Made by a program: the position numbers and the translations under genes. The notes under the pieces are model-generated. The model was given only the letters and a program-made list of their open reading frames with translations, made no database searches and was not told the DNA's origin. Shown here one piece after another: positions 2,465-39,633 of a stretch of 39,633 nucleotides of DNA. This stretch comes from a virus. The stretch spans positions 1-39,633 of IMG/VR virus record IMGVR_UViG_3300018428_000060. One strand, written 5' to 3'. Every line of letters starts with the position of its first letter. The first letter of the stretch is position 1.

Positions 2465-3028
2465 TCAAGCGAACGAGCAGATGATTACATCGATATACTG
2501 AATTCTCAGGTCAATATTACCTGTTCCAGTAGCAGTAAGACTAACCTGTCCAGAGAATGGGTGATCGTGCGCCTGACCAATACCACCAGGAGATAGAACA
2601 CCACCAGTATTGTTAGCACCTGGTGTTCTAAAACTACTACCACCACTAGATGCGTTTGCAGTTCCACCCATGTTAGAGTCATGAGTGTGATCTGGAATCT
2701 CAGCAGTGGTCAGAGTGTGACCACCAACAGTACCAGATACTGGTGCAGTAGTATTAAAGTTGACAGTAATGTTTGAATTAGAAGAGGGGAATACTGTGCT
2801 GAAGTTACTACCACCAGCACCAGAAGTTCCACCAAATCCAAATCCACCGCCAGCACCATTAACTAAGCGCAACGCCTTATCATTATGAGCAGTTACCTGA
2901 GTCCACCCAGTTGGTGCTGCTGCCTGATAGAATACGCTTACAGTATTTTGTGCTAATACGGAATACTTAGAAGATAATGATGTACCATCACTAAAAGTAA
3001 CCCCAGTGGCGGTTAATTGTGCTGCCAT
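2465..3028 (-). CDS. Tail-collar/short-fibre-like virion protein (paralog)
   Basis: A protein of 187 residues with the same plan as its downstream neighbour: PTGWTQVTAHNDKALRLV, a Gly-rich linker, EIPDHTHDS, AHDHPFSGQ and a C-terminal IQYIDVIIC. It is preceded by a late-type ATAAATAA element about 27 bases before the start, which fits late expression of a virion gene. The two paralogs may form a heteromeric tip or present alternative receptor-binding surfaces; this is inference. Confidence 0.8.
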   Translation of the reverse strand: MAAQLTATGVTFSDGTSLSSKYSVLAQNTVSVFYQAAAPTGWTQVTAHNDKALRLVNGAGGGFGFGGTSGAGGSNFSTVFPSSNSNITVNFNTTAPVSGTVGGHTLTTAEIPDHTHDSNMGGTANASSGGSSFRTPGANNTGGVLSPGGIGQAHDHPFSGQVSLTATGTGNIDLRIQYIDVIICSFA

Positions 3029-3054: not shown

Positions 3055-3063
3055 TTATTTATC
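3055..3063 (-). promoter_or_regulatory. T4-type late promoter element
   Basis: The minus strand reads GATAAATAA, matching the T4/cyanomyovirus late consensus (ATAAATA). It lies 27 bases upstream of the tail-collar gene start at 3028. A second overlapping TAAATAAA copy is at 3046-3053. Confidence 0.6.
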
Positions 3064-3337: not shown

Positions 3338-3509
3338 TGTTCTTGTTAAACTTTTTACGACACGCCTTCACTTCCTTCATCTCATCTTTGATCATCTGAT
3401 AGGCATCCTCAGCGTTAATTCTACCACCAAGTTCCATAGCACAGATGACTTCGACTCTAGTTCCAAAGTGCTTGAGTGCTTCTTCAAAACAATTTAGTTC
3501 TTCATACAT
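3327..3509 (-). CDS. Small conserved hypothetical protein
   Basis: A protein of 60 residues, mostly helical and charged (CFEEALKHFGTRVEVICAME, then EDAYQMIKDEMKEVKACRK). It overlaps the talC stop by eight bases and the next gene by 11, which fits the operon. I recall similar short proteins in cyanomyoviruses without known function. Confidence 0.65.
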   Translation of the reverse strand: MYEELNCFEEALKHFGTRVEVICAMELGGRINAEDAYQMIKDEMKEVKACRKKFNKNNDC

Positions 3510-4161
3510 TATTCAATGCCTCAAGGGATGCTTCATAATCACGTTGGAAGATAGCAAGTCCCTCACGAGTCAACACACTGTCATACATTGCATTGAACAC
3601 TTTGGTTGGCATGGTAACAATGTCAGAACCATACATGAAGCAGCGAGAGACATGATGTGCATCACGCAGAGATGCAGCAAGCACTTCAGTCTTCATGCCA
3701 TGGACAGAACGACAGGTTGCAATAGCACGGACCAATTCAACACCACTGAAGGAGTTATCATTACAACGTCCAACAAAAGGAGACAGATAGGTTGCACCTG
3801 CCTTCATTGCCATCACTGCTTGTGCAACAGAGAAGACAAGAGTCACGTTAGTCTTGATACCCATTCCAGTCAGTCGCTTACAAACAAGCAGACCATCTGG
3901 AGTGCAGGGAAGTTTGATAGTGGCAGCAGTGCCAAACTTCTCAGCAAGGCGAACACCATCATCATACATCTCACCCACGGTGCCAACAACTTCCATGCTG
4001 ACATCAGGCACGCCAATATCAATCATCTCCTGATATACTTCCTCAGGATCACGACCCGCCTTACGAATCAGAGAGGGGTTGGTAGTAACACCATCAACAA
4101 GTCCCGTCGCAAAATATTTACGGACTTCTTCGGTATCTGCGGTGTCAAGGAAGATCTTCAT
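3502..4161 (-). CDS. talC: Transaldolase of the TalC / fructose-6-phosphate aldolase-like family
   Basis: A full-length small transaldolase of 219 residues. The (beta/alpha)8 signatures are in place: FLDTAD (Asp6), TTNPS (Asn28), the Schiff-base lysine Lys83 in ATIKLPCT, and SPFVGR. Transaldolase moves a three-carbon dihydroxyacetone unit in the pentose phosphate pathway. Cyanophage TalC is a well-known auxiliary metabolic gene thought to help shift carbon from the Calvin cycle toward NADPH and pentose production during infection. It lies in a run of small genes, overlapping both neighbours. cp12, its usual functional partner, is found at 36906-37133. Confidence 0.96.
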   Translation of the reverse strand: MKIFLDTADTEEVRKYFATGLVDGVTTNPSLIRKAGRDPEEVYQEMIDIGVPDVSMEVVGTVGEMYDDGVRLAEKFGTAATIKLPCTPDGLLVCKRLTGMGIKTNVTLVFSVAQAVMAMKAGATYLSPFVGRCNDNSFSGVELVRAIATCRSVHGMKTEVLAASLRDAHHVSRCFMYGSDIVTMPTKVFNAMYDSVLTREGLAIFQRDYEASLEALNNV

Positions 4162-21225: not shown

Positions 21226-24200
21226 TTAGAGATCGTCCAATCTTGATCTCAATTCGTTTATCTGTTCTTGCTGTTCCTTAATTGCCTCAATCAAGACTGC
21301 AACCATATTCTGATATGCAACTGCCTTGGTTCCGTCAGGAGTTTCCTTGACAAGTTCAGGAAGAACCTTCTCAACCTCTTGTGCAATGACACCGATCTCA
21401 CGATCATCATAAGTCTTACCAATGCGGTTGAAGTATACGCCTCTGAGGTCCATGACCTTCTCAAGTGCGTTGGTGATACCAACAACATTCTCCTTCAGTT
21501 TCTCGTCGGAGTTGGCAGTGACAGTACCAGAGAAGTTGGCATTTCCAGCGGCGCTGATTCTGAGTCTCTCTTGTGGATTGGAGGCTCCGTTCTCCATTGT
21601 ACCGAAGACCAGACCAAACTGACCAGAAGTACCTTCAGATACACCCTTAATGTATCCACGCTCACCAGTGTTACCAATGTCATTACCTTCAAACTTGAGA
21701 CCACCATATCCATAAGCAGAGTTAAGTGCGGGGTCAGTCTGAAGGAATCTGATAAAGTTACCATCATTATCCGACACATCATTAGTTACAGCAGGGTCAG
21801 TACTGACAATGATATTCTCCAAGAATGTAGATATACCAATTGCATTGAAGGTATTAACATTAACCTGTTGATTGAACGTCGTTATACCTGTATTAACCAG
21901 GAATCCACCTGTAACGTTCCATATCAGAGATTCCATTCTAAATTCAACGTTGTTCTCAAAGAGAACAGGACCACTGGCATACAAGGAATACCCTGGTTTT
22001 GCTGAGGTTGTCTCAATACCAACGTTTGCAGTGGTAGAGATACCAACACCATCAAATACCCAAACGTCGGATACGTTTGTCAGTCCAGAACCATCACCTC
22101 TAAAGGTTCCACTCCAAAGACCAACATAGTAGTTGTCTGGATTTGCTTGAATAGGACCAAACTTCTTCCAGTTATTATCATTAGTGTAGACCCATCCAAG
22201 TTCGCCACCAGAATTTGGTTCAGCATCAAAGACAACATTACCAACGTTACCAGCAGTCTGTGGAGTAGAGATGCCAACCGTATACTCTCTAGCAATAGTT
22301 TGATCGCCCTGGATCAGAACACTATTACCTTCCAAAGAATCATTGACTGTCAACTTCTTATTGACAATCAGAGGACCATTGAATTGAGAGATGATAACAT
22401 TATCTTTACCACCATCAACCTTGATGCCTCTGGTGACAGAGAGTTGTTCGGTCTGATCTACATCAAATCCAACAGCACCAGTATCACTAGTAATGTCTTC
22501 ACCAGTTACAGTAGGAACTGGGGCATTAGTGATCAAGTCTTGACCAGTAGTACCACTAGTAAACTTATTAACAGTATATGCGTTACCCTGGTCATCCAAA
22601 CCATTATAGAATGGCGTACCAGCATTTACCGATACCGACTGAGACAGAAGTCTCTCAACCTGCTTGAATTGTCTATCTTGTCTCTCTGGAAGAGCGGTAG
22701 AGTAGTTACCAGGTCCAAATCCAAGATATTCAAAAGTATGACCAGATGCACGAATAATAGAGTTTCTTCTAAATTCAACTGGTTCAAACTTAACCTTACG
22801 CATGACTGAACCAACTGGGTGGTTCTGCTTCTGTGATCCAAAGAGTCCACGGAATACGTCAATTGCAGTGTCACTAGTTACAGACTCACTAATTCTCATG
22901 ATCTCATTATCGATCACGAGATAGTCACCAACGTCCCATCCCATGTGAGATGCATTAGTGACAGTCAGAGTATTAAGTGTTGGATCGTTAAGGGCAGTAG
23001 CAATGGTTGAGGTAATACCAGCATAAGTTGGAACAAGTCTAGAGGATGCTGCTTCATCTGCTATATCAATTCCAGACGCTTGAGCATTAACACCTGTTGG
23101 ATAGATAAATCCACCACCCGTTGGAGTAACAGTCGTGGTTCCAATACCAATCTTAACTGCAAGACTATTGACATTGTAAACAGTATCAACACTCCAGTGA
23201 CCATCAATCAGAGAGTTGCCTGCTCCACCAATTACGATGGAGTTACCAACCAACAGACCATGAGAATCAACAGTAGTAATACTGGAGATACCAGATACAT
23301 TGTCATATGTGATAGAACTGATGCCGATTGCCTCACCAGTTAAGTATGCAGTAACGTCAGAGAAGATAGCAGAGCTAATCTGAGTCAATCCACCAGTATT
23401 AATACCAGTGATTGCCGAAGGAGCAGAAAATTGCTCCTTATAGTAAACAGTGCTTGCAGATGCAACATTTATGTTTACATCATCTCCAGTATCAACACTG
23501 GTAACTCTATAGAGGTTATTGTAATCTTTAAATCTATCATCTCTAATACCATCAATACGCAGAACATCACCAATACTATTGTGAATCTGCTCAACAATAA
23601 CATGACCTACAATATGTCCTACAGTTGTGCCGATGCCAGTAACTGCAAGTGTGTTACCGATTCCGTATGCAGAACCACCATCAACAATCTTGATGTCAGA
23701 GATAGCACCTGTAGCATCAATCTCAACGTTAGCAGTAGCATACTTACCAGTTGTAGAACCAGCAAATCCAACTAATTTTGCATTATAGAGAGTCTGAACA
23801 CTACCAGATCCGTCACCATAATTAGCACCAACACTAGCAATACCAACTCTGGTAATATAGTTTAGACCATGGTCACCAGAAGTTGTTACCGTATGAGCAA
23901 TTCCAGATGCAGACAGAATGTCTGTTACATTAATACCAGTTACAAAATCCCTGGTTCTCTTGTTGATAACCTCTTTTGTAAGACTGTTCTTAGGATCATT
24001 AACCTCAGTCAGACCAAGTGGTGTTGGTAGAGCAAAAGTTCTTGTCTGTTCGGGGTCAGAGGTTGGATTATCTCTATCAAGTTGTGGATAGAGATTCTTA
24101 AGTGGTTGACTATATCTAAGATTTTGGAATGGCGCAACCTGTGGTTGGGAATCTGCAGCAATAAGAGTCAGGTGATAAACACCGTCCTTTGCATTAGGAA

Positions 24201-27057
24201 TATACTCTTGTATTTCTTCCTTTCTGTAAACAAACAACGTAGTGTTGAATTCTTTACGTTCAAATCTAGGAAGATCTACAGTTCTAAGGTTAACATTATT
24301 GTCAAATAGACCAGGATTAGTAGTAAGACCAACACTAAATGACTTTCTATCTGGAGTTGCAGTGACCTCAAAGACACCGTTGAATCCAGTATTACCAAGT
24401 CCAGTTGTATTAGCAGTAGATACAATATTCTTAATCTCAACTTTAGATCCTACAGACAAGTCGTGTGGAATCTCAGTTTTAATCGTAGCAATACCAACAA
24501 TAGCATCCCAATCAGTTCCAGAGATGAATCTTGGGTTTCTGATTTCAGAAGTATTGGAAAGAATTACTGGAGTTGTATTCTTAAACTTGGCAACTTCATT
24601 ATTAGTAAATCCAACAGTGGTGCTAGATTCCTGCATGACAAAGGAATCTTCTGGTGGTCTACCAAGAACTGTAGAATCCTTTGGTACAACGTATCTTACC
24701 TTATAGAGTCCATCATCAAGACCTCTATTGTCTGGAGTTCTACTGATGAAGGTTTTTGGCGTTGCTGCACCAAGAGAAGTTGTTCCAAGTCCTACAACAG
24801 TATTATAAATTTCATTACTATCATTGACAGTAATATACCATTGTCCAATAGCAGTATCATACTGAACTGGGTGACCAATATCACCAGACTTCTTATCAGA
24901 TACTCTAGATTCAATCTGAAGAATGCCACCCTTACTGTTTACATTAACAGAAGATGCACTAATAGTATCATTCAGAGTTTGTGCTAATTTAACCTGATCA
25001 GTATTAATACCAGCAGTGATAGCATAATAAACTCTATTGTGATCCAGACCATCTGGGAGTTCACCATCATCACTAAGAATACGCAAAGATTCACCAGACT
25101 TAAACTGGTGTCCCTCAGTCAGAGTAAAGATGTTAGAGGTAATACTATTAATACCAATAGCAGTTCTACCTACAGTAGATAACTTTTTAGAAGTTACTTC
25201 ATAAACACCCGTTCCTTGGGTGTCTGGCATAATAATTTTAGCAGTCTTAGTTTGAGGTACATTATTCTCGTTGATGATAACCTTCAGAGTATCATCAATC
25301 TTTGCACCAATCCTATATCCTTCAAGTACAGATTTTGGAGGAACGTTCTGATTGATCTCATTGTAGAGATAAAGTCTATTATCGTTAGCGGCATCAATAG
25401 TCTTTTGAACATCAATCGATGCGAATTCAATTGTTACCTCGTCACCACTGATTTTTTGAGGTGGGATGATATGAGTAATATATCCAGTATCATCTCTAGG
25501 GAATGCATTGTCCCTAAATCCAGAACATACAAGTGCCCTTGCACCAAAGTTGGAGTTAGAATTTGTAACAGAGTGGTCACCACCAGACTCAGCAACAAAG
25601 TGATTCGCGTATCCAATAGCGAACACAGACACCAACTGCAAGAATGCATCATTTGATGCTTTGATGTGGAAGTTCTCGTAGTCTGGTTTGTATACAGCAG
25701 AAGTATCAGTGTGTAAGTTGTTTACAGCAGTAGAGTCTTCGTATACACCAGAGACTGCATTGTATTTTACAAATGCAGTATCATCTTTTTGAAGTCCAAT
25801 ACCAGTAAACTGGGCAACAACCATGGACTTGAATCCGTCTGCCTTGCTACCATCAGCGTGCAGACCGCACATACCGTATACAGAACGGAGTGAGCAGTTG
25901 AAGATGTATGGAGATGCAGAAGTTACAGAGTCAACAACAATATTCAGCGTTGGAGCACCAGCAACAATAGATGGAAGTGCATTCGATGGTGGATTAGATA
26001 CCTCATAGTTAATCTTAGTGGGTCCTTGAACCTCACTGATTACGAAGGATCCGTTATATCCACCAGTAGGCACACCCTCAATTCTAATTGGAGTATCTAC
26101 ATCAAGACCACCAAGTGCTTCTGTCAGCTCTACTTCAATGGTGGTGCTAGAGTTAATACCATCACCTGCTTTAATACTGTTAATACCAACATTCTCACCC
26201 TTAGATCCAACGATTCTAAATTCGTCAATCTTGGTTTGAATATCAAGTCCTGTGCTTGGGAAGTCTGGAGAAATATCTCTTCCACTAGAAGGACCAAAGG
26301 CGAGACCAATCTTCTCGTAGTAAATATCGAGGTCAGTTCTCTCGGAAGAGTAATTTAAGAAATTATCATTAAATCCAACATTGTTTACACCATCAGCATA
26401 CTCAAAACAAGTAACTTTGTGGTGAGAATAGTTAGGAACGAACTTTGTCAGTCCATAATCTTTAAAGACTGATGAGTTTGGATTAGCATCAAAAAATGTG
26501 AACTGATAGAAGTAACAAGTACCCGTTACACGGAACAAGCAAGTTTGCTTAATATTAGCATCTGCAGGATCAGGAACGAACATCGGACGGATCTTCGTCT
26601 TACGAAGGTCCATACCAACAATAGATGTACCACGGGGGATAATTACACCACCGTAGACAGAGTTCATCTTATAAAGATCGTTCTCTGGATCGTCAATATC
26701 AAAGTTTGCATCTAATGTAAACTGACCTAAGGCATTTGACGTAGATCCACTACGTGTCAACCAGTTATTACCAGTTAAAGGATTGTCATGAATGGGAATC
26801 CATCCAGGTCTATTATCAATGACGTGCTCACCAGGATAAACGATGATTGTAGTTCTGCTAAATCTATCGTTATCCAGACCCTTCTGATAAGAGAATCTCG
26901 CTGCTTCTAAGAGTGCTCTTTGAATAGTCTTGAAGGGTCTAACAAGGGAATTGCCTTGGTTTTCAATACTATCCGTCGAGTCAATACTAGAAGGATCGAC
27001 GTAAAGGATATCACCTTTACTATTCTTGAGGAAATTATCTAAGCGACTAAGACCCAT
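21226..27057 (-). CDS. Giant tail fibre protein with C-terminal peptidase S74 chaperone
   Basis: A protein of 1943 residues. The N-terminus (GDILYVDPSSIDSTDSI, RPFKTIQRALLEAARFSY, IIVYPGEHVI) is a right-handed beta-helix/pectate-lyase-like entry known in cyanomyovirus fibres. The middle is a long series of beta-rich, Gly/Thr/Ser-rich repeats. The last 94 residues are an intramolecular chaperone of the S74 type: self-cleavage Ser1850 and Lys1855 in ANSDEKLKENVVGI, GVIAQEVEKVLPELV, and a closing coiled coil. The chaperone trimerises the fibre and cuts itself off. A late promoter lies 30 bases upstream and a strong terminator follows. This is the main receptor-contact candidate. Confidence 0.9.
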   Translation of the reverse strand: MGLSRLDNFLKNSKGDILYVDPSSIDSTDSIENQGNSLVRPFKTIQRALLEAARFSYQKGLDNDRFSRTTIIVYPGEHVIDNRPGWIPIHDNPLTGNNWLTRSGSTSNALGQFTLDANFDIDDPENDLYKMNSVYGGVIIPRGTSIVGMDLRKTKIRPMFVPDPADANIKQTCLFRVTGTCYFYQFTFFDANPNSSVFKDYGLTKFVPNYSHHKVTCFEYADGVNNVGFNDNFLNYSSERTDLDIYYEKIGLAFGPSSGRDISPDFPSTGLDIQTKIDEFRIVGSKGENVGINSIKAGDGINSSTTIEVELTEALGGLDVDTPIRIEGVPTGGYNGSFVISEVQGPTKINYEVSNPPSNALPSIVAGAPTLNIVVDSVTSASPYIFNCSLRSVYGMCGLHADGSKADGFKSMVVAQFTGIGLQKDDTAFVKYNAVSGVYEDSTAVNNLHTDTSAVYKPDYENFHIKASNDAFLQLVSVFAIGYANHFVAESGGDHSVTNSNSNFGARALVCSGFRDNAFPRDDTGYITHIIPPQKISGDEVTIEFASIDVQKTIDAANDNRLYLYNEINQNVPPKSVLEGYRIGAKIDDTLKVIINENNVPQTKTAKIIMPDTQGTGVYEVTSKKLSTVGRTAIGINSITSNIFTLTEGHQFKSGESLRILSDDGELPDGLDHNRVYYAITAGINTDQVKLAQTLNDTISASSVNVNSKGGILQIESRVSDKKSGDIGHPVQYDTAIGQWYITVNDSNEIYNTVVGLGTTSLGAATPKTFISRTPDNRGLDDGLYKVRYVVPKDSTVLGRPPEDSFVMQESSTTVGFTNNEVAKFKNTTPVILSNTSEIRNPRFISGTDWDAIVGIATIKTEIPHDLSVGSKVEIKNIVSTANTTGLGNTGFNGVFEVTATPDRKSFSVGLTTNPGLFDNNVNLRTVDLPRFERKEFNTTLFVYRKEEIQEYIPNAKDGVYHLTLIAADSQPQVAPFQNLRYSQPLKNLYPQLDRDNPTSDPEQTRTFALPTPLGLTEVNDPKNSLTKEVINKRTRDFVTGINVTDILSASGIAHTVTTSGDHGLNYITRVGIASVGANYGDGSGSVQTLYNAKLVGFAGSTTGKYATANVEIDATGAISDIKIVDGGSAYGIGNTLAVTGIGTTVGHIVGHVIVEQIHNSIGDVLRIDGIRDDRFKDYNNLYRVTSVDTGDDVNINVASASTVYYKEQFSAPSAITGINTGGLTQISSAIFSDVTAYLTGEAIGISSITYDNVSGISSITTVDSHGLLVGNSIVIGGAGNSLIDGHWSVDTVYNVNSLAVKIGIGTTTVTPTGGGFIYPTGVNAQASGIDIADEAASSRLVPTYAGITSTIATALNDPTLNTLTVTNASHMGWDVGDYLVIDNEIMRISESVTSDTAIDVFRGLFGSQKQNHPVGSVMRKVKFEPVEFRRNSIIRASGHTFEYLGFGPGNYSTALPERQDRQFKQVERLLSQSVSVNAGTPFYNGLDDQGNAYTVNKFTSGTTGQDLITNAPVPTVTGEDITSDTGAVGFDVDQTEQLSVTRGIKVDGGKDNVIISQFNGPLIVNKKLTVNDSLEGNSVLIQGDQTIAREYTVGISTPQTAGNVGNVVFDAEPNSGGELGWVYTNDNNWKKFGPIQANPDNYYVGLWSGTFRGDGSGLTNVSDVWVFDGVGISTTANVGIETTSAKPGYSLYASGPVLFENNVEFRMESLIWNVTGGFLVNTGITTFNQQVNVNTFNAIGISTFLENIIVSTDPAVTNDVSDNDGNFIRFLQTDPALNSAYGYGGLKFEGNDIGNTGERGYIKGVSEGTSGQFGLVFGTMENGASNPQERLRISAAGNANFSGTVTANSDEKLKENVVGITNALEKVMDLRGVYFNRIGKTYDDREIGVIAQEVEKVLPELVKETPDGTKAVAYQNMVAVLIEAIKEQQEQINELRSRLDDL

Positions 27058-27085: not shown

Positions 27086-27094
27086 TTTATTTAT
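27086..27094 (-). promoter_or_regulatory. T4-type late promoter for the fibre gene
   Basis: The minus strand reads ATAAATAAA (within AATAAATAAA, up to 27095), about 30 bases before the fibre ATG at 27057. It overlaps the stop codon of the small upstream gene. Confidence 0.65.
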
Positions 27095-28440: not shown

Positions 28441-28992
28441 CTATTGTGGTCCCATTGGTGGGTCCACGAGGTAAATGTTACCAGATATTGTTGATCCTTC
28501 ATTACCAGACATTACAAAGTGCTCTACCCAGGAAGGGAATATAATCATTCCACCAGAGGGAATTTCTGGAATGAAGTCCATTGGAATAGTCTGGGCATAC
28601 ATTCCCCATTGATTCATGTACTCCTTCCTAGCAGGATTCATGAACACGGTTTTGGAACATTCAACGGTATCATATATGATAAAACTCCACTGGGCACCAG
28701 AATGAATATGAGGATCTTGCCAATCCTCTTTGTTATATTCATTCCTCCATACTTGCCCAATAGCAAATGATTTATCAGAGAATCTACCAATACATTCTGA
28801 GATTATAGATCCCAAGTATTCGTAGGATTCATCAGTCAAAGAATCTCCCGAGAGACTTGACATCACTCCACTCAAAAAGGATGGAGAAAAATTAGGATTG
28901 TCATTGAAGTCAATCTTATCTAGATCAACTTGTTCAACAAAGAATGGTACAGAGAACATTGAATGTGGTTCTCTAGAATAATCAAGATTCAT
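28441..28992 (-). CDS. Putative 2OG-Fe(II) oxygenase (HxH type)
   Basis: A protein of 183 residues. The motif block is DPHIHSGAQWSFIIYD (His-x-His), then GGMIIFPSWVEHFVMSGNEG with the distal His and ISGNIYLVDPP as the last strand. This is the same fold variant as the genes at 12506 and 31412. The N-terminus (HSMFSVPFFVEQVDLD) is also family-like. The stop is three bases before tRNA-Thr, and the start overlaps the upstream gene by 11 bases. Substrate unknown. Confidence 0.75.
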   Translation of the reverse strand: MNLDYSREPHSMFSVPFFVEQVDLDKIDFNDNPNFSPSFLSGVMSSLSGDSLTDESYEYLGSIISECIGRFSDKSFAIGQVWRNEYNKEDWQDPHIHSGAQWSFIIYDTVECSKTVFMNPARKEYMNQWGMYAQTIPMDFIPEIPSGGMIIFPSWVEHFVMSGNEGSTISGNIYLVDPPMGPQ

Positions 28993-29284
28993 CTAATTCA
29001 GCAAGTATCTCAGGGTTTTCTACTTCTAACTCAAAAAAACATGGATGGCATTCTTCCATTATCAGATATCCAGAAGACCTGAATAGGTGTTCAGGATTAT
29101 AACGAAGTTGATGTGTGTTAGCAGCAATTTTACAAGAATAATTTTGTTCTTCTTCCTCTGTCAACTCGTCCCAGGTAAAAGGAATGCCATTTATGAAGTA
29201 CATTTTGACCACTCTTTCTGGTACTCCCAATTCCATCGAATCATACCAGCAGTATGCTTTAGTAAGCTTAAGGCTCATACTCAT
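28982..29284 (-). CDS. Hypothetical protein
   Basis: A protein of 100 residues. No motif is recognised; it has a central helix rich in Glu (TWDELTEEEEQNYSCKIAAN) and three cysteines (C12, C51, C82) not arranged as a known site. The 3' end overlaps the 2OG gene. Intact and in the operon. Confidence 0.6.
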   Translation of the reverse strand: MSMSLKLTKAYCWYDSMELGVPERVVKMYFINGIPFTWDELTEEEEQNYSCKIAANTHQLRYNPEHLFRSSGYLIMEECHPCFFELEVENPEILAELDES

Positions 29285-29316
29285 ACTGTTACCGTTTCCT
29301 AATATTTAGTTTTTGA

Positions 29317-29917: not shown

Positions 29918-30667
29918 CTACCAAGGACCACCATAACCAGGATCTTCGACGACCACCAAAGACGCTTTTACTTCGGTTAATTTCTGTTGTGTGGTTACTT
30001 GCTGCCTCTCCAATCCCCACAGTTCAAATTGTGCTTCCATCTTTAATTCTTGGTTCTCAGTTGCAACAAGGCATTGATTAGTGACTGTAGATATACCAGC
30101 ATTATATTGTGATATCAAAGATGTCACATCCACATTGACATCAAACACGACCCCAATATCAGATCCACCATTTTGAAAAAATCTGGTGCTTCTACCAATA
30201 CCAATATTACTATTGGTTACTGTATAAAATCCCTCACCATCAAATACAGTTGCATCATCACTATAGTCTCCACCAGATATCTTTGGATAATCATATCCCT
30301 TTATCACATCATTTTTTATAGTTCCATAAGCAACAACTGCTGTTGACCCAATTCCAGCAATACCCAGAGATTCACCAAGAGCAGTCGTTACTCCAGTAAC
30401 CATGGATCCATACTTGCTGGTTACATTTGATGTACTAGATCCATACAAAGACGTTGATAATCCAGTGTTGCCACCTAGGGTAACAATACTTTGCTTTACT
30501 ACATTTGCAGCATCAATAGTATTCTTTGCCAACTGCTGAGATTCAACGGAAGGTGGTGTGAATTTATCAAGATTTTTTTGTGTTTTGGCACGCTTAACTG
30601 GGATCTTAGTAAGAACTCCTTCCAGTTGATCCCTCTCCTTCCTAAGTTCTTCAGTTGTAGTTGCCAT
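29918..30667 (-). CDS. Virion structural protein, unassigned
   Basis: A protein of 249 residues. The N-terminal 65 residues are helical (EELRKERDQLEGVLTKIPVK), the centre is Gly/Ser/Thr-rich with short beta segments (YTVTNSNIGIGRSTRFFQNG), and a helical Gln/Glu-rich segment ends in DPGYGGPW. The composition and the late promoter upstream (30688-30696) fit a virion protein of cyanomyovirus type. No specific T4 homolog is recognised. Confidence 0.68.
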   Translation of the reverse strand: MATTTEELRKERDQLEGVLTKIPVKRAKTQKNLDKFTPPSVESQQLAKNTIDAANVVKQSIVTLGGNTGLSTSLYGSSTSNVTSKYGSMVTGVTTALGESLGIAGIGSTAVVAYGTIKNDVIKGYDYPKISGGDYSDDATVFDGEGFYTVTNSNIGIGRSTRFFQNGGSDIGVVFDVNVDVTSLISQYNAGISTVTNQCLVATENQELKMEAQFELWGLERQQVTTQQKLTEVKASLVVVEDPGYGGPW

Positions 30668-30687: not shown

Positions 30688-30696
30688 TTATTTATT
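30688..30696 (-). promoter_or_regulatory. T4-type late promoter
   Basis: AATAAATAA on the minus strand, 21 bases before the ATG at 30667. It fills the 29-base divergent intergenic gap and ends next to the GTG of the plus-strand gene. Confidence 0.68.
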
Positions 30697-34065: not shown

Positions 34066-36897
34066 TTAGTATCCATATCCGCCGCCACCAGACGGTGGTG
34101 ATGGTGGTGGAGGAGTTGGGGGTGATGGGGGTGGCGGAGACGGTGGAGACGGCGATGGAGCTGGAGCACTCGGTGGTGCGGATGGTGGTGGCGGAGGAGG
34201 AGGTGGAGTTCCAGTATTTGCATTAGGAAGAACAGTTCCTGCTCCAGTTGTTGCCATGGTTCCACCACTAGATGGAGTAGGAGTAGGAGTTGCTGTAGAT
34301 GGTTGAGTAGAAATAGGTGAAGTTGCAGTTGCGGGTCTTACTACTTGTAACAGATTACCATTCACCCACTGGAATCTATTATCATAGTTATCCAAACTCT
34401 TAGCAACACTATCCCACACCAATGGATGTGGTCTTTGTGTATGCTCAGCACCAACCATCTTCACACCTCTATGTTGATGTGTTGGACCATAGTATGGTTG
34501 TCCGTTAATGTAACCTGCAAATTCCTCGTTGGAAACAATACCAACACAATTAACTACAGACACAATTCCACCAAGAATAGGATCATCTGGAATCTCACCA
34601 TCGGTATCGTCACCAATTCTATCAACACAGAATACTGGTCTTAATATAGCATTATATCCTGTTTCAGACTCAACGTAAATTAACGGTCTCTCTATAAAAC
34701 CCTTTCCTGCTTTGACAATTCTTATTGACTGCAATACACCAAAAGGTCCAAATGTAGGGACAACTTCTGTTCCATTACTTGGTTCAATAACAACTCTGTC
34801 ACCGTCACTGTAATTTATACCATGATTCTCAATGTTGATATCACACAAATACAACATTGCAGGATAACTTCCAATATCTAGTGTTGGGAATGCATCAAAC
34901 TCAGTTGCACCATTTGGTCCAGTTCCAGGAAGAACTGTTGTTCTTCTAAGTCTTGCAAGTCTTTCTTCCTGAGTCTCTCCAGTGGGAAGTCTGCTTCCAG
35001 GGTCTACAATATCACGACCACCTGAACCTGGAGTTTCTCTACCACCTGGTCCAATAATCGGCACTCCACCCTCAATAATAGTTCTATCACCAGGAGCAAT
35101 TACAGTATCTCCATCTCTTATATCAAGATCTTCAAGAGAACTCCTTTCTGGTGGGAATTTTTCCCACCTACCATCTTCTCTTTTAACTACAGTATAATCT
35201 GCTGGTGCCCAAACTCTACCATCACCACCAAGATCACCATTGGGTCTGGATAAATATCCACCACCCTCATCCTGAACAATAACCTGTACAACTTTAAGTG
35301 TAGGATCTCCAGTTGAAGGATCTATACCACCATCAGGTGCTGTTACAACTTTGGCGCGGACTCCACCACCTTTACCACAATTATCTTTAATTTGAATACT
35401 TGGTGCTTTTTTATATCCTAGACCACCAGCAATTAAATCAATACCTAAAAGTGATCCAGCAGCACTAACAATTGCATTTCCCTTAGCACCAGATCCACCA
35501 CCACCCCAGAAGGTCACTTGAGGTGGTCCACAAAACACAGGACCAACATTACATCCACCTGCGGACTGAGCAGCATCAGCAATCAATCCATCAAAATCAA
35601 TAGATGCAAGATTTTCAATATCTACCAGTTTTGATGCTGCACCAGCAACACCTTTTGCTTTATTAATAATACTATCTAAATCTAAAGTCATTGGTGGAGA
35701 TCCACCATCAAAGATATTCCACTCTTTAGTTTCTGGGCACTCTTGCTTCTCTTCACAAGCAAAGAATCCAGCAATTTGACCAAGAATACCAAGAATAGAT
35801 CCAGCGATACTAAATGCTCCGCCAAGTAAAGAGGATATATTATTGATGATTGAATTGATGGCTCCAGTAAGAGCACCAAGAGTGTTACCTAAGAGACTAC
35901 CAACAAAATTTTGAACAGCACATGCAGGAACATTAATATAGCGATCAAGCATCTGAGACAAGAAGTTGCCAACCATTGCCTTAAGGTTGCCAATCATTTT
36001 ATTGAACAGGCAAGTAATCAATTCAATAAGTGCGTCCTTAGCACCTTTTGCTTTATCTCTATCTGGAGGATTGACAAGTTCAATTAATTTTTTAGTTTGT
36101 TCGTTAATCTGCTCCTCAACAAACTTTCTAATATCTTTGAATAAGTTTTTTAATCCAAGAGATATGAATTCGGATGCTTCGGCGGACTTTTCTTGAATCC
36201 ACTGCTGCTTATCAGCGATCCACGACTGAGCAGCAGTCTCCCACGTATTTAATTGATCGGTTGCCCTCTCAATCTTTGCGATGAGTTCCTTCATGTAAAT
36301 TCCAATGGAACTCATTTCATTTTTATCACACTCTGTAGGAGAAGACAGAGGAACAGAAGGTTCCTTCATCATTGTCTTATCACTAAGAGACATGATATTT
36401 GGAAGGGTCATTCCCTCCAAAGGTTTGCCTGCTAAAGCAGGAACGGAGTAACCAGCAACCGTGTCCCAATCCTTATATCCACTATAAGGAAGAAATCCGT
36501 TATTATCTGGTTGTTTTTTAGGTAAAAGAAGTTGATCATTATTTGGTACAGTGTAAAGATACACTGGACCTTCTTTTTTTGCAGGGTCTTCCCAATAACC
36601 AACAATCTTGGATCCCTGAGTGATCCCTGGTGTTAGTCCTGTTCTTTTATGACCAGACCCTGCACTTGAAGAACCAATTACAACCCAAGGTAGTTGATCA
36701 TCAGTCTGTACGTTTTTATCTGGAGAGTGGACACCTTCTATTCTAACTTTAACCCTATATCCCCAGTTCTTAACTTGGTCACGAGATCCAACGAGTTCGT
36801 CATCCCTCGCCCAAACTTCTCTGGGTGCAACAATTCCTGTCCAAAACATGGAGGAATTGCCTTCATCATAAAATGGGTGTGTTAGATAAGTTGCCAT
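34066..36897 (-). CDS. Baseplate hub protein with gp5-like OB-fold and proline-rich tail
   Basis: A protein of 943 residues. Residues about 40-120 look like the gp5 OB-fold (KNWGYRVKVRIEGVHSPD, LPWVVIGSSSAGSGHKRTG, IVGYWED). No T4 lysozyme domain is visible. Residues about 325-382 are unusually hydrophobic and Gly/Ile-rich (NTLGALTGAINSIINNISSL and GILGQIAGFF), as in membrane-active segments. After several beta-rich domains, the last 70 residues are a Pro/Ser/Ala run ending GGGGYGY. It is next to the needle gene and the gp27-like gene, as a central hub would be. Confidence 0.72.
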   Translation of the reverse strand: MATYLTHPFYDEGNSSMFWTGIVAPREVWARDDELVGSRDQVKNWGYRVKVRIEGVHSPDKNVQTDDQLPWVVIGSSSAGSGHKRTGLTPGITQGSKIVGYWEDPAKKEGPVYLYTVPNNDQLLLPKKQPDNNGFLPYSGYKDWDTVAGYSVPALAGKPLEGMTLPNIMSLSDKTMMKEPSVPLSSPTECDKNEMSSIGIYMKELIAKIERATDQLNTWETAAQSWIADKQQWIQEKSAEASEFISLGLKNLFKDIRKFVEEQINEQTKKLIELVNPPDRDKAKGAKDALIELITCLFNKMIGNLKAMVGNFLSQMLDRYINVPACAVQNFVGSLLGNTLGALTGAINSIINNISSLLGGAFSIAGSILGILGQIAGFFACEEKQECPETKEWNIFDGGSPPMTLDLDSIINKAKGVAGAASKLVDIENLASIDFDGLIADAAQSAGGCNVGPVFCGPPQVTFWGGGGSGAKGNAIVSAAGSLLGIDLIAGGLGYKKAPSIQIKDNCGKGGGVRAKVVTAPDGGIDPSTGDPTLKVVQVIVQDEGGGYLSRPNGDLGGDGRVWAPADYTVVKREDGRWEKFPPERSSLEDLDIRDGDTVIAPGDRTIIEGGVPIIGPGGRETPGSGGRDIVDPGSRLPTGETQEERLARLRRTTVLPGTGPNGATEFDAFPTLDIGSYPAMLYLCDINIENHGINYSDGDRVVIEPSNGTEVVPTFGPFGVLQSIRIVKAGKGFIERPLIYVESETGYNAILRPVFCVDRIGDDTDGEIPDDPILGGIVSVVNCVGIVSNEEFAGYINGQPYYGPTHQHRGVKMVGAEHTQRPHPLVWDSVAKSLDNYDNRFQWVNGNLLQVVRPATATSPISTQPSTATPTPTPSSGGTMATTGAGTVLPNANTGTPPPPPPPPSAPPSAPAPSPSPPSPPPPSPPTPPPPSPPSGGGGYGY

Positions 36898-36905
36898 CTA
36901 TATAA

Positions 36906-37133
36906 TCAGTTATCGTGAATCTTACATTCAAGTGCGGATGGATTTTGATCACAATAAAGTTCCAAAGGACTTGGATCATGGTGATCCCCTGCCTCAATCT
37001 CTTCTTTGTGATTCTCAACCCAATCTTCGAGGTCGTGTAATTCTTCCTCGACATGACGACGCTGCTGTGGAGAAGTCAGAGGATCCTCAAGGATCTTCTT
37101 ATCCTTCTCAATGTGTGCTTCGATGTTTTCCAT
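36906..37133 (-). CDS. cp12: CP12, Calvin-cycle inhibitor
   Basis: A protein of 75 residues. The C-terminus DPSPLELYCDQNPSALECKI is the CP12 signature with the redox cysteines Cys61 and Cys70 (C-x8-C); the upstream helix ELHDLEDWVENHKEE corresponds to the family's central helix. CP12 brings GAPDH and PRK into an inactive complex and so blocks the Calvin cycle. Phage CP12 is a known auxiliary metabolic protein and, like here, usually lacks the N-terminal Cys pair. The final VYED-type end is changed to KIHDN. It sits between baseplate genes, 22 bases after a late-type promoter, an unusual place. Confidence 0.88.
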   Translation of the reverse strand: MENIEAHIEKDKKILEDPLTSPQQRRHVEEELHDLEDWVENHKEEIEAGDHHDPSPLELYCDQNPSALECKIHDN

Positions 37134-37154
37134 GATGGTTTATCGAGTTATTGA

Positions 37155-37163
37155 TTATTTATT
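37155..37163 (-). promoter_or_regulatory. T4-type late promoter upstream of cp12
   Basis: The minus strand reads AATAAATAA (within TAATAAATAA), 22 bases before the cp12 ATG. It overlaps the stop codon of the gp27-like gene. Confidence 0.65.
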
Positions 37164-38784
37164 AGTATAATTCCAGATAATCATCTGGATTGAAGTTAGG
37201 ATCATCATACCCAGCATCTAGATCAACATCGACTTCTTTACCAACAGATGTCCTATCTATGACGTTTCCGCCAGTGTCGGTAGTTCCACTTGGTTCCCAA
37301 GTGCCACTATTCCATCTATTTACGAGGTCTTTCTCCTCTGCCGATAATCGTTTTGCAATCTCTTCATCAGTATTACCAAATTCAGAGAATGGATTAGTAT
37401 CCTTAGAACCAAATATACCCCTTGGACTCTCTTGACCCGCTAAAGCAGGTTTTGCAGCAGTCGCAGTACTTCTATTTGGTTGCCTACCATACGAATCCCT
37501 AACTAATCTCATTTTAGTTACGGTATGCTTCTGCGTCAAGTGTGTGCAAATATCAGCGACAATATAAAGTCCACTTAACTCTTTATCAAAATCATCTCCT
37601 TTGTCCATTTTAGCATCTTTTTGAGGAAAATCGGCATGAACAATAGAACCTGCTCTTAGTGTATAGTCTCCTGGAACTGCAATAGTAATATCTAAACTGA
37701 ATAACTTATTGTAGGTCATAGCACTTTGCAGTATGACTTCATCCAACTTCAGATTTGGTTCTGTTGCCTGATCTACCTGCTCCTCTACAGATCCTGTAGG
37801 AAGATTTCCAACGTCGTCTTTCTTCTTAAATGTTTTTGATACTGTGCTTTGGAACAGTTCAAGAAAATCTTTTGCAAGTTCTGGTACATCTATTCCACCA
37901 TGTACCTTCTGCTCATCTGTTGTTATCTCTTGTGCTTTGGTATTATATACATGAGAATATGTGTTGGAAGTCTGCAATGATGACCCGTATGCACCAGAAT
38001 GTAAATTTTTAGACACACTTATACTTTGATCTGCATCATACCTAATAATTTTTGCCTCATATCCTACAGGAAGTTCTGTACTATTGTTATAGATATACGC
38101 TCTGGCACCCTCAGAATCATCAAATAAGTTATCGATTGATCTAAAATTAAATCCATCATAAGTTTCAAAGAAGAGATATCCTGCACTACTTTTAGATTTT
38201 GCAGACACTCCCCTAGTAGCAATCTCTCCTATCAATCTAAATGGTTTTTTACCCCTACCTTCAACATTAAATTTATTGGCGGTAGTGTCAAGAATAATAT
38301 TCTTTTTAGTCTTCAATGCATCAGTAAGAATAGCATTTGCTGTTGCACTAATTTCTCCATCAAATCTACGATAAACTTCACATGCTGCAAGATCATTAGC
38401 AACTGCTTCTAATGAGAACAAATCAATAATATATGTCATCCCACTTTCAGATGATGTGATATTCCTTACCTTCTCCACATATAATGCATTATCACCCTCG
38501 TACTTCAACTTATTACCATAAGCATCTTCTATTGTAAGATGCACCTTCTCTGAACCAGATAATTTTAAATATTGAATTGCAGATACCGCCTTATCTCCAC
38601 CACCAACTTCATGTCCAGAATCTGCAACAAGAATAGAGAATCTTACTGTTGGTTCCAGTATACTCTCATAATAATCACACTCAACAACACCAGCAGAAAT
38701 ATCTTTGCTGCCACTTACTTTATTAGAAAATATCTCAAGTTTTGAGATATTACCAGAATTAGTTGCTAGGTTTGATGTTGGCAT
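37162..38784 (-). CDS. Putative baseplate hub protein (gp27-like position)
   Basis: A protein of 540 residues, mostly beta-rich: the first 230 residues (FSNKVSGSKDISAGVVECDY, HLTIEDAYGNKLKYEGD, FRLIGEIATRGVSAKSKSS, GYLFFETYDGFNFRSIDNL) resemble tail-hub proteins of the gp27 type. Residues about 355-430 (TIAVPGDYTLRAGSIVHAD) look like the second hub barrel, and the last 100 residues are Asp/Pro/Gly-rich and probably disordered. It lies between cp12 and the M23 gene, in a hub module. The role is inferred from context and overall style. Confidence 0.62.
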   Translation of the reverse strand: MPTSNLATNSGNISKLEIFSNKVSGSKDISAGVVECDYYESILEPTVRFSILVADSGHEVGGGDKAVSAIQYLKLSGSEKVHLTIEDAYGNKLKYEGDNALYVEKVRNITSSESGMTYIIDLFSLEAVANDLAACEVYRRFDGEISATANAILTDALKTKKNIILDTTANKFNVEGRGKKPFRLIGEIATRGVSAKSKSSAGYLFFETYDGFNFRSIDNLFDDSEGARAYIYNNSTELPVGYEAKIIRYDADQSISVSKNLHSGAYGSSLQTSNTYSHVYNTKAQEITTDEQKVHGGIDVPELAKDFLELFQSTVSKTFKKKDDVGNLPTGSVEEQVDQATEPNLKLDEVILQSAMTYNKLFSLDITIAVPGDYTLRAGSIVHADFPQKDAKMDKGDDFDKELSGLYIVADICTHLTQKHTVTKMRLVRDSYGRQPNRSTATAAKPALAGQESPRGIFGSKDTNPFSEFGNTDEEIAKRLSAEEKDLVNRWNSGTWEPSGTTDTGGNVIDRTSVGKEVDVDLDAGYDDPNFNPDDYLELY

Positions 38785-38812
38785 GGTAATTATTAATTAC
38801 TTAAGTATTTAA

Positions 38813-39633
38813 TCAAGCAGTTGCAGATATAACTTGATTGTCCTTAGGAACAGATCTATGTCCTATAGTCCTACCTCTAGAATTCTTAATGGGAACTCTC
38901 ACATACTCAGTCTTCTCAATTACTGCAACAGTTGATCCTGCCTCCTCATAAGAAGTCTGCTGTGAAACCTGAGAAGCATTATTTGTTGGTGTATTTGTAG
39001 CAATTTGTGCTTCAGTATTGGCACCATGAGTATTGATCCACTTACCAGGATCAACATAACTACTAAACTGTCCATTTGCTGCAGGAGCAGAAGTAGATAT
39101 CTCCCAGTGAAGGTGAGGTGGATAAGAGTCCAAAGAACCAAATCCAGAACCACCTACATTAGCAAGTAATGCACCTGCTTTAAATTTTGTACCTGGACTC
39201 AATGCAGGAGGTCTATCCAGGTGACCAAAGAAGTGATATGCGCCATGTGGATCATCCTTCCATACGACCCAATATCCATATCCACCATCTGCAGCACCAC
39301 CAAGTTGAGTGTTAGAATGAGTTACCTCACCATCTAGATAAGCATACATTGGTGTTCCAGGATCAGCACCAACATCATATCCTCTGTGATCAGAGTTAGT
39401 GCTTGCTCTGTATCCTTTACCAGATGTAATTACAATACCACCTCTGGATGCCTGATCTTGAATATCTGACTGAGCAAACGGACTATATGATATATCAAGT
39501 CTGGCACCTGCCTGACCATCATACTGAACAGATCCAGATTGACCTGTAAGACCAACCAACTTATCAGAACCACCCAATGTTCTACCAGCAGAGGGCAATC
39601 TAGCTCCAGGAATCATTGAACTAGAACCACCAG
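38813..39633 (-). CDS. Tail-associated M23 peptidase, partial (runs off the right edge)
   Basis: The frame stays open past the first in-window Met (39616) with an upstream GGSSSM, so the N-terminus lies outside the window. From that Met, 267 residues are seen. The M23/LytM zinc motifs are present: SDHRGYDVGADPG (HxxxD) and PPHLHWEIS (HxH), with HFFGHLD between them. M23 enzymes cut peptidoglycan cross-bridges. As the hub protein here lacks a lysozyme domain, this could be the cell-wall cutter of the tail. The C-terminus is probably disordered and basic. Confidence 0.85.
   Translation of the reverse strand, partial: GGSSSMIPGARLPSAGRTLGGSDKLVGLTGQSGSVQYDGQAGARLDISYSPFAQSDIQDQASRGGIVITSGKGYRASTNSDHRGYDVGADPGTPMYAYLDGEVTHSNTQLGGAADGGYGYWVVWKDDPHGAYHFFGHLDRPPALSPGTKFKAGALLANVGGSGFGSLDSYPPHLHWEISTSAPAANGQFSSYVDPGKWINTHGANTEAQIATNTPTNNASQVSQQTSYEEAGSTVAVIEKTEYVRVPIKNSRGRTIGHRSVPKDNQVISATA

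Follow-up and report, generated by a model that had tools for sequence, protein, structure and literature searches.

A T4 late-type promoter element associated with cp12 in the baseplate hub module of marine cyanomyoviruses

Introduction

Does a late-type promoter in front of cp12 mean that a cyanophage shuts down the Calvin cycle only when it builds virions? The question is raised by a 39,633-base IMG/VR virus record, a marine cyanophage fragment analyzed here over its whole length (the window), in which the initial annotation placed cp12 in the baseplate hub module behind such a promoter and reasoned that shutdown would then fall at the virion-building stage. How much carbon an infected cell goes on fixing depends on when the phage halts fixation, a step for which CP12 has been proposed as the switch. 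The accessible part of one study assigns about 90% of flexible genes to early or middle expression, a pattern from which a late-type promoter on cp12 departs (PMC3037559).

Results

cp12 encodes a marine-type CP12 between two baseplate hub genes

The cp12 gene lies on the minus strand at 36906-37133, as initially annotated, and encodes a 75-aa homologue of the CP12-domain Calvin-cycle inhibitor. The product matches the Pfam CP12 profile PF02672 over residues 2-74 of 75 (1.9e-8), and its score of 35.4 bits, above the curated cut-off of 22.7, places it in the family. It also matches phrog_627 (5e-38), while an NCBIfam search returned nothing for it. The only two Cys residues, the C-terminal pair C61 and C70, are invariant in a sequence alignment of 12 phage CP12s. 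The C-terminal part aligns with the CP12 chains of the solved complexes 6gfo and 3zdf and keeps their tail motif YC(D/E)..P...EC; judged by sequence, the window protein has the C-terminal Cys pair and tail of the CP12 family. This tail is the GAPDH-binding end of CP12. Canonical CP12 also has an N-terminal Cys pair, which is absent from the window protein. The same pair is missing, with two Cys left, in 75 of 75 loci that are nearly all picocyanobacterial (L480-L554, of which L480 is itself phage-like in appearance), so the absence marks the marine type of CP12 and not a loss by the phage.

The window CP12 is 59% identical to that of Syn9 and carries a five-residue insert, EIEAG, which is shared with S-8S56 and missing from Syn9, S-RSM4 and P-HM2. 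Loci L007-L013 share 83-88% identity with the window in cp12 but only 20-26% in the adjacent gp27-like proteins, which could reflect strong constraint on the CP12 protein or cassette-like exchange of its gene. The cp12 of Prochlorococcus sp. AG-402-N21 (L485) joins a host-type N-terminal half to the phage-type insert HKEEIEAGDHHDP and is possibly a host/phage recombinant. Phage-type cp12 also occurs on contigs L475-L480, which are labelled as Nonlabens xiamenensis (188 kb), as 'Euryarchaeota' MAGs and as a Prochlorococcus single cell (189 kb); these are probably of cyanophage origin and were binned with the contigs of other organisms.

In minus-strand order, cp12 follows a gp27-like baseplate hub gene (37162-38784), with 28 bases from the gp27-like stop to the cp12 start, and precedes a gp5-like gene (34066-36897), whose start is 8 bases past the cp12 stop. 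The 540-aa gp27-like protein matches phrog_350 (tail, 1.4e-73). Its family profile gave only chance-level matches against PDB sequences, and its identity was settled by fold comparison. An AlphaFold2 model of moderate confidence (pLDDT 67.9) had the T4 gp27-gp5 complex as its best Foldseek match (2.7e-18), and it aligns with T4 gp27 from the cell-puncturing device (1k28_D) over 335 residues with a Z score of 26.0 and an rmsd of 3.9. The predicted fold is that of gp27, and on this model the ORF is correctly labelled. The 943-aa gp5-like protein, a baseplate hub protein/tail lysozyme, matches phrog_1922 (1.9e-59) and ends in a long proline-rich tail (34066-34200, minus strand); a weak Pfam match to an ECF transporter, below the cut-off, was disregarded. 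NCBIfam returned nothing for either protein. An M23-family peptidase in the same module (38813-39616, minus strand) matches PF01551 (2e-14), and its NCBIfam matches are to peptidases only, far below the cut-off. The talC transaldolase gene (about 3502-4161, minus strand; 47% identical to Syn9 TalC, 3.9e-58) is about 33 kb from cp12, which bears out the annotated distance between the two, and the 60 bases upstream of its start contain no NTAAATA.

The hub is the usual place of cp12

The initial annotation considered the position of cp12 unusual and proposed a comparison with other cyanomyoviruses. That comparison turned out against it, with the same location found in most relatives. A gp27-like gene is directly upstream of cp12 in 71 of 80 IMG/VR loci gathered by cp12 similarity, and in the other nine cp12 is elsewhere. 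Among the 71 hub loci, 64 have a gp5-like gene downstream, 6 end without room for one and 1 has no match, as scored with a gp5 profile built in part from isolates later tested with it. A hub-placed cp12 was also found in 16 of 20 isolates, all re-checked by profile and hand-picked for variety from match lists of 362 and 354 records that are redundant (S-RIM2, ACG-2014 series). These are S-8S56, S-H38, Sf-CH8, ACG-2014e, S-RIM2, Syn9, S-RSM4, P-SSM3, P-RSM4, P-RSM6, S-SM2, ACG-2014d, S-CAM9, S-8S29, SynMITS9220M01 and S-SSM6b, in some of which cpeT, tRNA or other small genes separate cp12 from gp5. The four exceptions are S-TIM5, S-SKS1, P-HM2 and MED4-213, and in the last two cp12 adjoins talC, past psbA/psbD. 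Sullivan et al. (2010) already print cp12 as 'near gp5' in the text available (PMC3037559), and we reject the position as a novelty. The hub position of cp12 is ordinary and is no sign of anything.

A late-type element precedes cp12

The first base of the element AATAAATAA (37155-37163, minus strand; core ATAAATA at 37156-37162) is also the second base of the gp27-like stop codon. We count 21 bases from it to the cp12 ATG, within one of the 22 initially annotated. Read as AATAAATA (37163-37156), it fits the T4-type late core, which resembles TATAAATA and often has A for T(-13) in the parts available of two T4 accounts (PMC1524935, PMC2988020). ATAAATA occurs at chance level in the window (7 seen, 8.3 expected on both strands), so the signal there is one of strand and placement and not of number. 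There are eight [AC]TAAATA on the minus, coding, strand and one on the plus strand, and six of the eight begin 25-37 bases upstream of an ORF start. Besides the cp12 element, these minus-strand sites are ATAAATA at 27088-27094, 37 bases before a 1943-aa tail-fibre gene (21226-27057), at 30689-30695, 28 bases before ORF 29918-30667, and at 3056-3062, 34 bases before ORF 2465-3028, and CTAAATA at 29303-29309, 25 bases before ORF 28982-29284, and at 1885-1891, 37 bases before ORF 1522-1854.

Eight of eight close kin with a window-type junction (L001-L004, L006, L110-L112) have TAATAAATA intact, at -29 where it was placed and at -41 in L112. With a T4-like start, for which the element lies at -13 to -6 in the T4 literature as available (PMC1524935), the geometry and sequence predict a leader of about 17 bases (37134-37150, minus strand), in which no Shine-Dalgarno-like sequence was seen. 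The T variant TTAAATA (38806-38812, minus strand) lies 28 bases before the gp27-like start and is a possible source of read-through into cp12. There is no NTAAATA between the cp12 stop and the gp5-like start.

The motif marks structural genes in cyanomyoviruses

A late consensus NATAAATA is in print for S-PM2 (PMC2984593), with its T4 parent in PMC1524935, both as far as the available parts go. In each of 11 complete cyanomyovirus genomes, the main coding strand carries 54-76 copies of [AC]TAAATA and the opposite strand 3-9; for ATAAATA in Syn9 the counts are 37 and 1. We searched for NTAAATA 14-60 bases before the starts of orthologues of 54 Syn9 genes in the 11 genomes, counting gene-by-genome cells; some genes were missing or could not be placed in some of the genomes. 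With genes classed by annotation and T4 knowledge and not by measured timing, the motif precedes structural genes in 99 of 214 cells, replication and nucleotide genes in 3 of 211, and auxiliary genes other than cp12 in 11 of 124. Structural genes themselves range from rich (gp4 11/11, gp20 10/10, gp26 and gp18 10/11) to poor (gp23 1/11; none for gp6, gp14, gp16 and gp21). On the coding strand of these cyanomyoviruses, the motif is a mark of structural genes as opposed to replication genes.

With the motif in 10 of the 11 genomes (all but S-SM2), cp12 is level with the best structural genes. Among the other auxiliary genes it precedes talC in 5/11 (as CTAAATA or ATAAATA), petE in 3/8 (as GTAAATAG), hsp20 in 2/11 and psbA in 1/11, with none for the rest, and the psbA/psbD/hli/nrd set is almost always without it. 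Late-type control may be shared by talC, petE and the like. In P-HM2, NTAAATA is also upstream of gp32, nrdC and psbA, which makes it less specific as a marker in that genome than in the remaining ten. The gene for gp55 is absent from the window and was found in one of seven related contigs, all fragments.

The element is tied to cp12

After removal of near-identical upstream regions, NTAAATA is present in 37 of 56 cp12 upstreams, in every case at -25 to -36, as compared with 35 of 264 control starts, which were set mechanically for further long ORFs of these loci and may in some cases be wrong (odds ratio 12.7, p = 3.6e-15). We also considered the element as a by-product of the upstream stop codon. 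When only upstreams with TAA at -40 to -15 are compared, the enrichment persists (37/45 against 33/123, p = 1e-10). Relative to the upstream stop, the element takes three registers, with 3, 10 and 11 cases, and in 13 cases the two do not meet. We rejected the by-product explanation on these grounds, and the element appears to be held for its own sake. Together with its presence in 10 of 11 complete genomes, this confirms the initially annotated late-type element before cp12, and the promoter observation is both real and general. The literature surveyed, in the parts available and exclusive of the Syn9 transcriptome and Thompson 2011, contained no statement of a late promoter on cp12; when cp12 is expressed could already be on record for a further phage, for instance Syn9.

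The association has exceptions among hub copies: 23 of 71 in IMG/VR and 2 of 16 in isolates have no NTAAATA within 150 bases, which indicates that cp12 can do without the element. In five further IMG/VR hub copies it lies at -61 to -70, beyond the -60 limit. Searches centred on gp27 kept 224 of 273 loci, the rest having no room or no placeable next gene, and yielded 26 junctions that bear cp12. Seven have [ACG]TAAATA (six close kin and the distant L121), and in the other 19 (L113-L118, L120, L122-L124, L126-L129, L133, L134 and L225-L227) the cp12 match begins at most about 15 bases from the gp27-like stop. All of these 19 except L225-L227 belong to a deep contig group with cp12 packed element-free against that stop, and cp12 in this group probably depends on read-through.

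A different conserved stretch, G followed by 7-8 A and then (C/T)TCCGCCAAAAAATC, lies about 32 bases before cp12 in hub loci L020, L034, L066, L070 and L074 and 35 bases before gp5 in Syn9 (L102:16088). One-mismatch variants occur in S-SM2 and P-SSM3, and the stretch is absent from the window. It resembles a leader or a regulatory element.

Host-type promoters and the timing of cp12

The strongest competing explanation is that a sigma70-like promoter drives cp12 in middle infection, and that the late-type element merely prolongs transcription or marks overlapping early and late control. Such overlap has been proposed as a mode of middle expression for RB49 and S-PM2 in the accessible text of one report (PMC2984593). 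In P-HM2 and MED4-213, TTGACA-17-TAGGAT overlaps the late-type element of cp12, CATAAATA, which in P-HM2 is at -31. P-HM2 is the sole phage for which cp12 timing could be read, and RNA-seq places the gene in the middle class there, according to the available part of that study (PMC5082946). The late-type element alone therefore does not fix late timing, and the P-HM2 result disfavours the suggested virion-stage shutdown of the Calvin cycle. P-HM2 is an odd genome and may be a poor proxy for cp12 timing.

Near-perfect sigma70-like sites also stand upstream of TATAAATA in P-RSM4 (TTGACA-17-TATAAT, 12/12, just upstream) and in L005 (ATGACA-17-TATAAT, 11/12). The P-RSM4 start taken here is the ATG in agreement with the remaining CP12s (locus position 4001) and not the annotated one at 3980, which would leave the element just 10 bases upstream. 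A dual architecture, in which the late-type element has a strong sigma70-like promoter close to it or overlapping with it, was observed before cp12 in L005, P-RSM4 (L092), L088, L090, L069 and L075. Sites matching at least 10 of 12 positions are commoner before cp12 (10/56) than before control starts (17/264, p = 0.014), but the remaining 46 of the 56 deduplicated cp12 upstreams lack one within 100 bases. In the window, the best site in the 100 bases before cp12 matches 8 of 12 positions, no better than shuffled sequence (p = 0.64), none is present on the minus strand of 36700-37500, and we rejected a sigma70 promoter in the window junction. The TATACT that overlaps the element was rejected as a second promoter since it is coding and is replaced by TATCCT, TAGACT or GATACT in several close kin, in which TAATAAATA does not vary. 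Taking both sides together, we regard sigma70-driven middle expression as the unlikely but leading competitor.

Reported times for the arrest of carbon fixation are about 2 h for S-RSM4, whose hub cp12 has ACTAAATA, and about 4 h for S-PM2, a phage that has no cp12 (times from the available parts of PMC10452541 and PMC10665884). This comparison speaks against a very late effect, and it is confounded by talC, gnd and zwf.

The element probably belongs to cp12 more than to gp5

The element could instead belong to the hub operon and serve gp5, with cp12 a passenger between promoter and gene. In the window, the gp5-like gene follows cp12 within 8 bases and has no element of its own, and in S-PM2 GTTAAATA lies about 27 bases before gp5, as it does in its kin L220-L222. 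TTAAATA is found at five cp12-free junction rows (S-PM2 twice, and L220-L222). The element in the S-PM2 group might be left over from a cp12 that has since disappeared, or might be a gp5 promoter of older date. Against a gp5 promoter, 12 of 13 non-hub cp12 copies keep the element (9/9 in IMG/VR and 3/4 in isolates), and gp5 has an element besides that of cp12 in S-RIM2, P-RSM4 and S-8S29, where other genes lie between the two, and in S-8S56, where they are close. Furthermore, [ACG]TAAATA is missing from 197 of 198 cp12-free junctions, a redundant set that includes distant phages; the exception, L376, has GTAAATA. In the rows listed, the gp27-like and gp5-like genes of such junctions mostly overlap or touch. 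An old gp5 promoter was mostly rejected, with the S-PM2 group excepted, and a passenger cp12 is improbable.

An unused element, with cp12 transcribed only by read-through from tail promoters and AATAAATAA a leftover of an A+T-rich junction, is more improbable still: the chance-level motif number in the window, the element-free hub copies and the TTAAATA before the gp27-like gene, which could feed read-through, would fit it, but the strand bias, spacing and conservation of the element do not.

Discussion

The cp12 gene, its place, the element before it, and the link of that element to cp12 and to structural genes are direct observations. We propose that cp12 has its own replication-coupled promoter of the gp55/gp45 type, resulting in middle-to-late expression, with a host-type promoter as a backup in some lineages, and we assign this reading a probability of roughly 0.55. 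That the element is used, when cp12 is expressed and that its product inhibits the host enzymes are points we infer. cp12 would sit in its usual Kyanoviridae hub place with its own T4 late-type element (NATAAATA or CTAAATA), which would be read by gp55 together with gp33 and the gp45 sliding clamp. As described in the accessible part of a T4 paper, the late TATA box is recognized by gp55, activation comes from gp33 together with the gp45 clamp, and late transcription is thereby coupled to ongoing replication (PMC2988020), by which cp12 would be transcribed from the onset of replication onward. Genes for gp55, gp33 and gp45, but none for MotA, are reported from cyanomyoviruses, within the text available (PMC2984593), and the window cp12 would on that basis be expected to be transcribed from its own element after replication begins. 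The gp5 gene behind cp12 would be transcribed along from the same element, and read-through from the upstream tail genes would add to the cp12 transcript. CP12 would bind host GAPDH (and PRK) and so send carbon and reductant into the pentose phosphate pathway at the time of dNTP synthesis. The protein would be present middle-to-late, when demand for dNTPs and NADPH is high, and its expression would be coupled to replication, belonging neither to early takeover nor strictly to the virion-building stage.

Transcription of cp12 from a replication-coupled promoter, if real, would close down the Calvin cycle at the time of growing dNTP demand and would join two separate ideas, auxiliary genes and T4 late control, in one testable model. 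A wider and more tentative suggestion, which we consider possible but somewhat doubtful, is that cp12 is the only auxiliary metabolic gene that marine cyanomyoviruses regularly have under their late, clamp-coupled promoter system, that the element moves along with it, and that carbon-fixation shutdown is tied to active phage DNA replication and not to host takeover, separately from the psbA/psbD/hli/nrd set.

Comparison with known systems

The hub cp12 of other Kyanoviridae (Syn9 gp17, ABA46991.1; S-RSM4 SRSM4_226; S-RIM2; and ACG-2014e) is the same gene in the same place as in the window, and in these phages, as in the window, NTAAATA lies at -28 to -33. Syn9 and S-RIM2 differ in having cpeT and a tRNA between cp12 and gp5. 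The cp12-talC pair of Eurybiavirus (P-HM2, MED4-213) includes a CP12 homologue, likewise with CATAAATA at -31, but it is beside talC, downstream of psbA/psbD and after an endonuclease-like gene. Unlike the window copy, it has an overlapping sigma70-like promoter, and the P-HM2 copy is the one placed in the middle class.

The CP12 of marine picocyanobacteria has the same type of C-terminal motif, YC(D/E)xxPxxxEC, with two Cys, and is 35-49% identical to the window CP12 over the match, mostly 72 aa. It mostly lacks the insert, which among L480-L499 is present only in L480 and L485.

T4 late promoters (TATAAATA, read with gp55, gp33 and gp45) have the same core, need no -35 element and precede structural genes, and the CTAAATA variant of cyanomyoviruses departs from that core. 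For five non-cyanobacterial T4-like genomes, every late promoter reported lies before an orthologue of a T4 late gene, in the part of that study available, and a host-derived gene with a late-type promoter departs from this printed pattern (PMC1524935). Unlike the late promoters of T4, the late-type element in the window stands before a host-derived metabolic gene.
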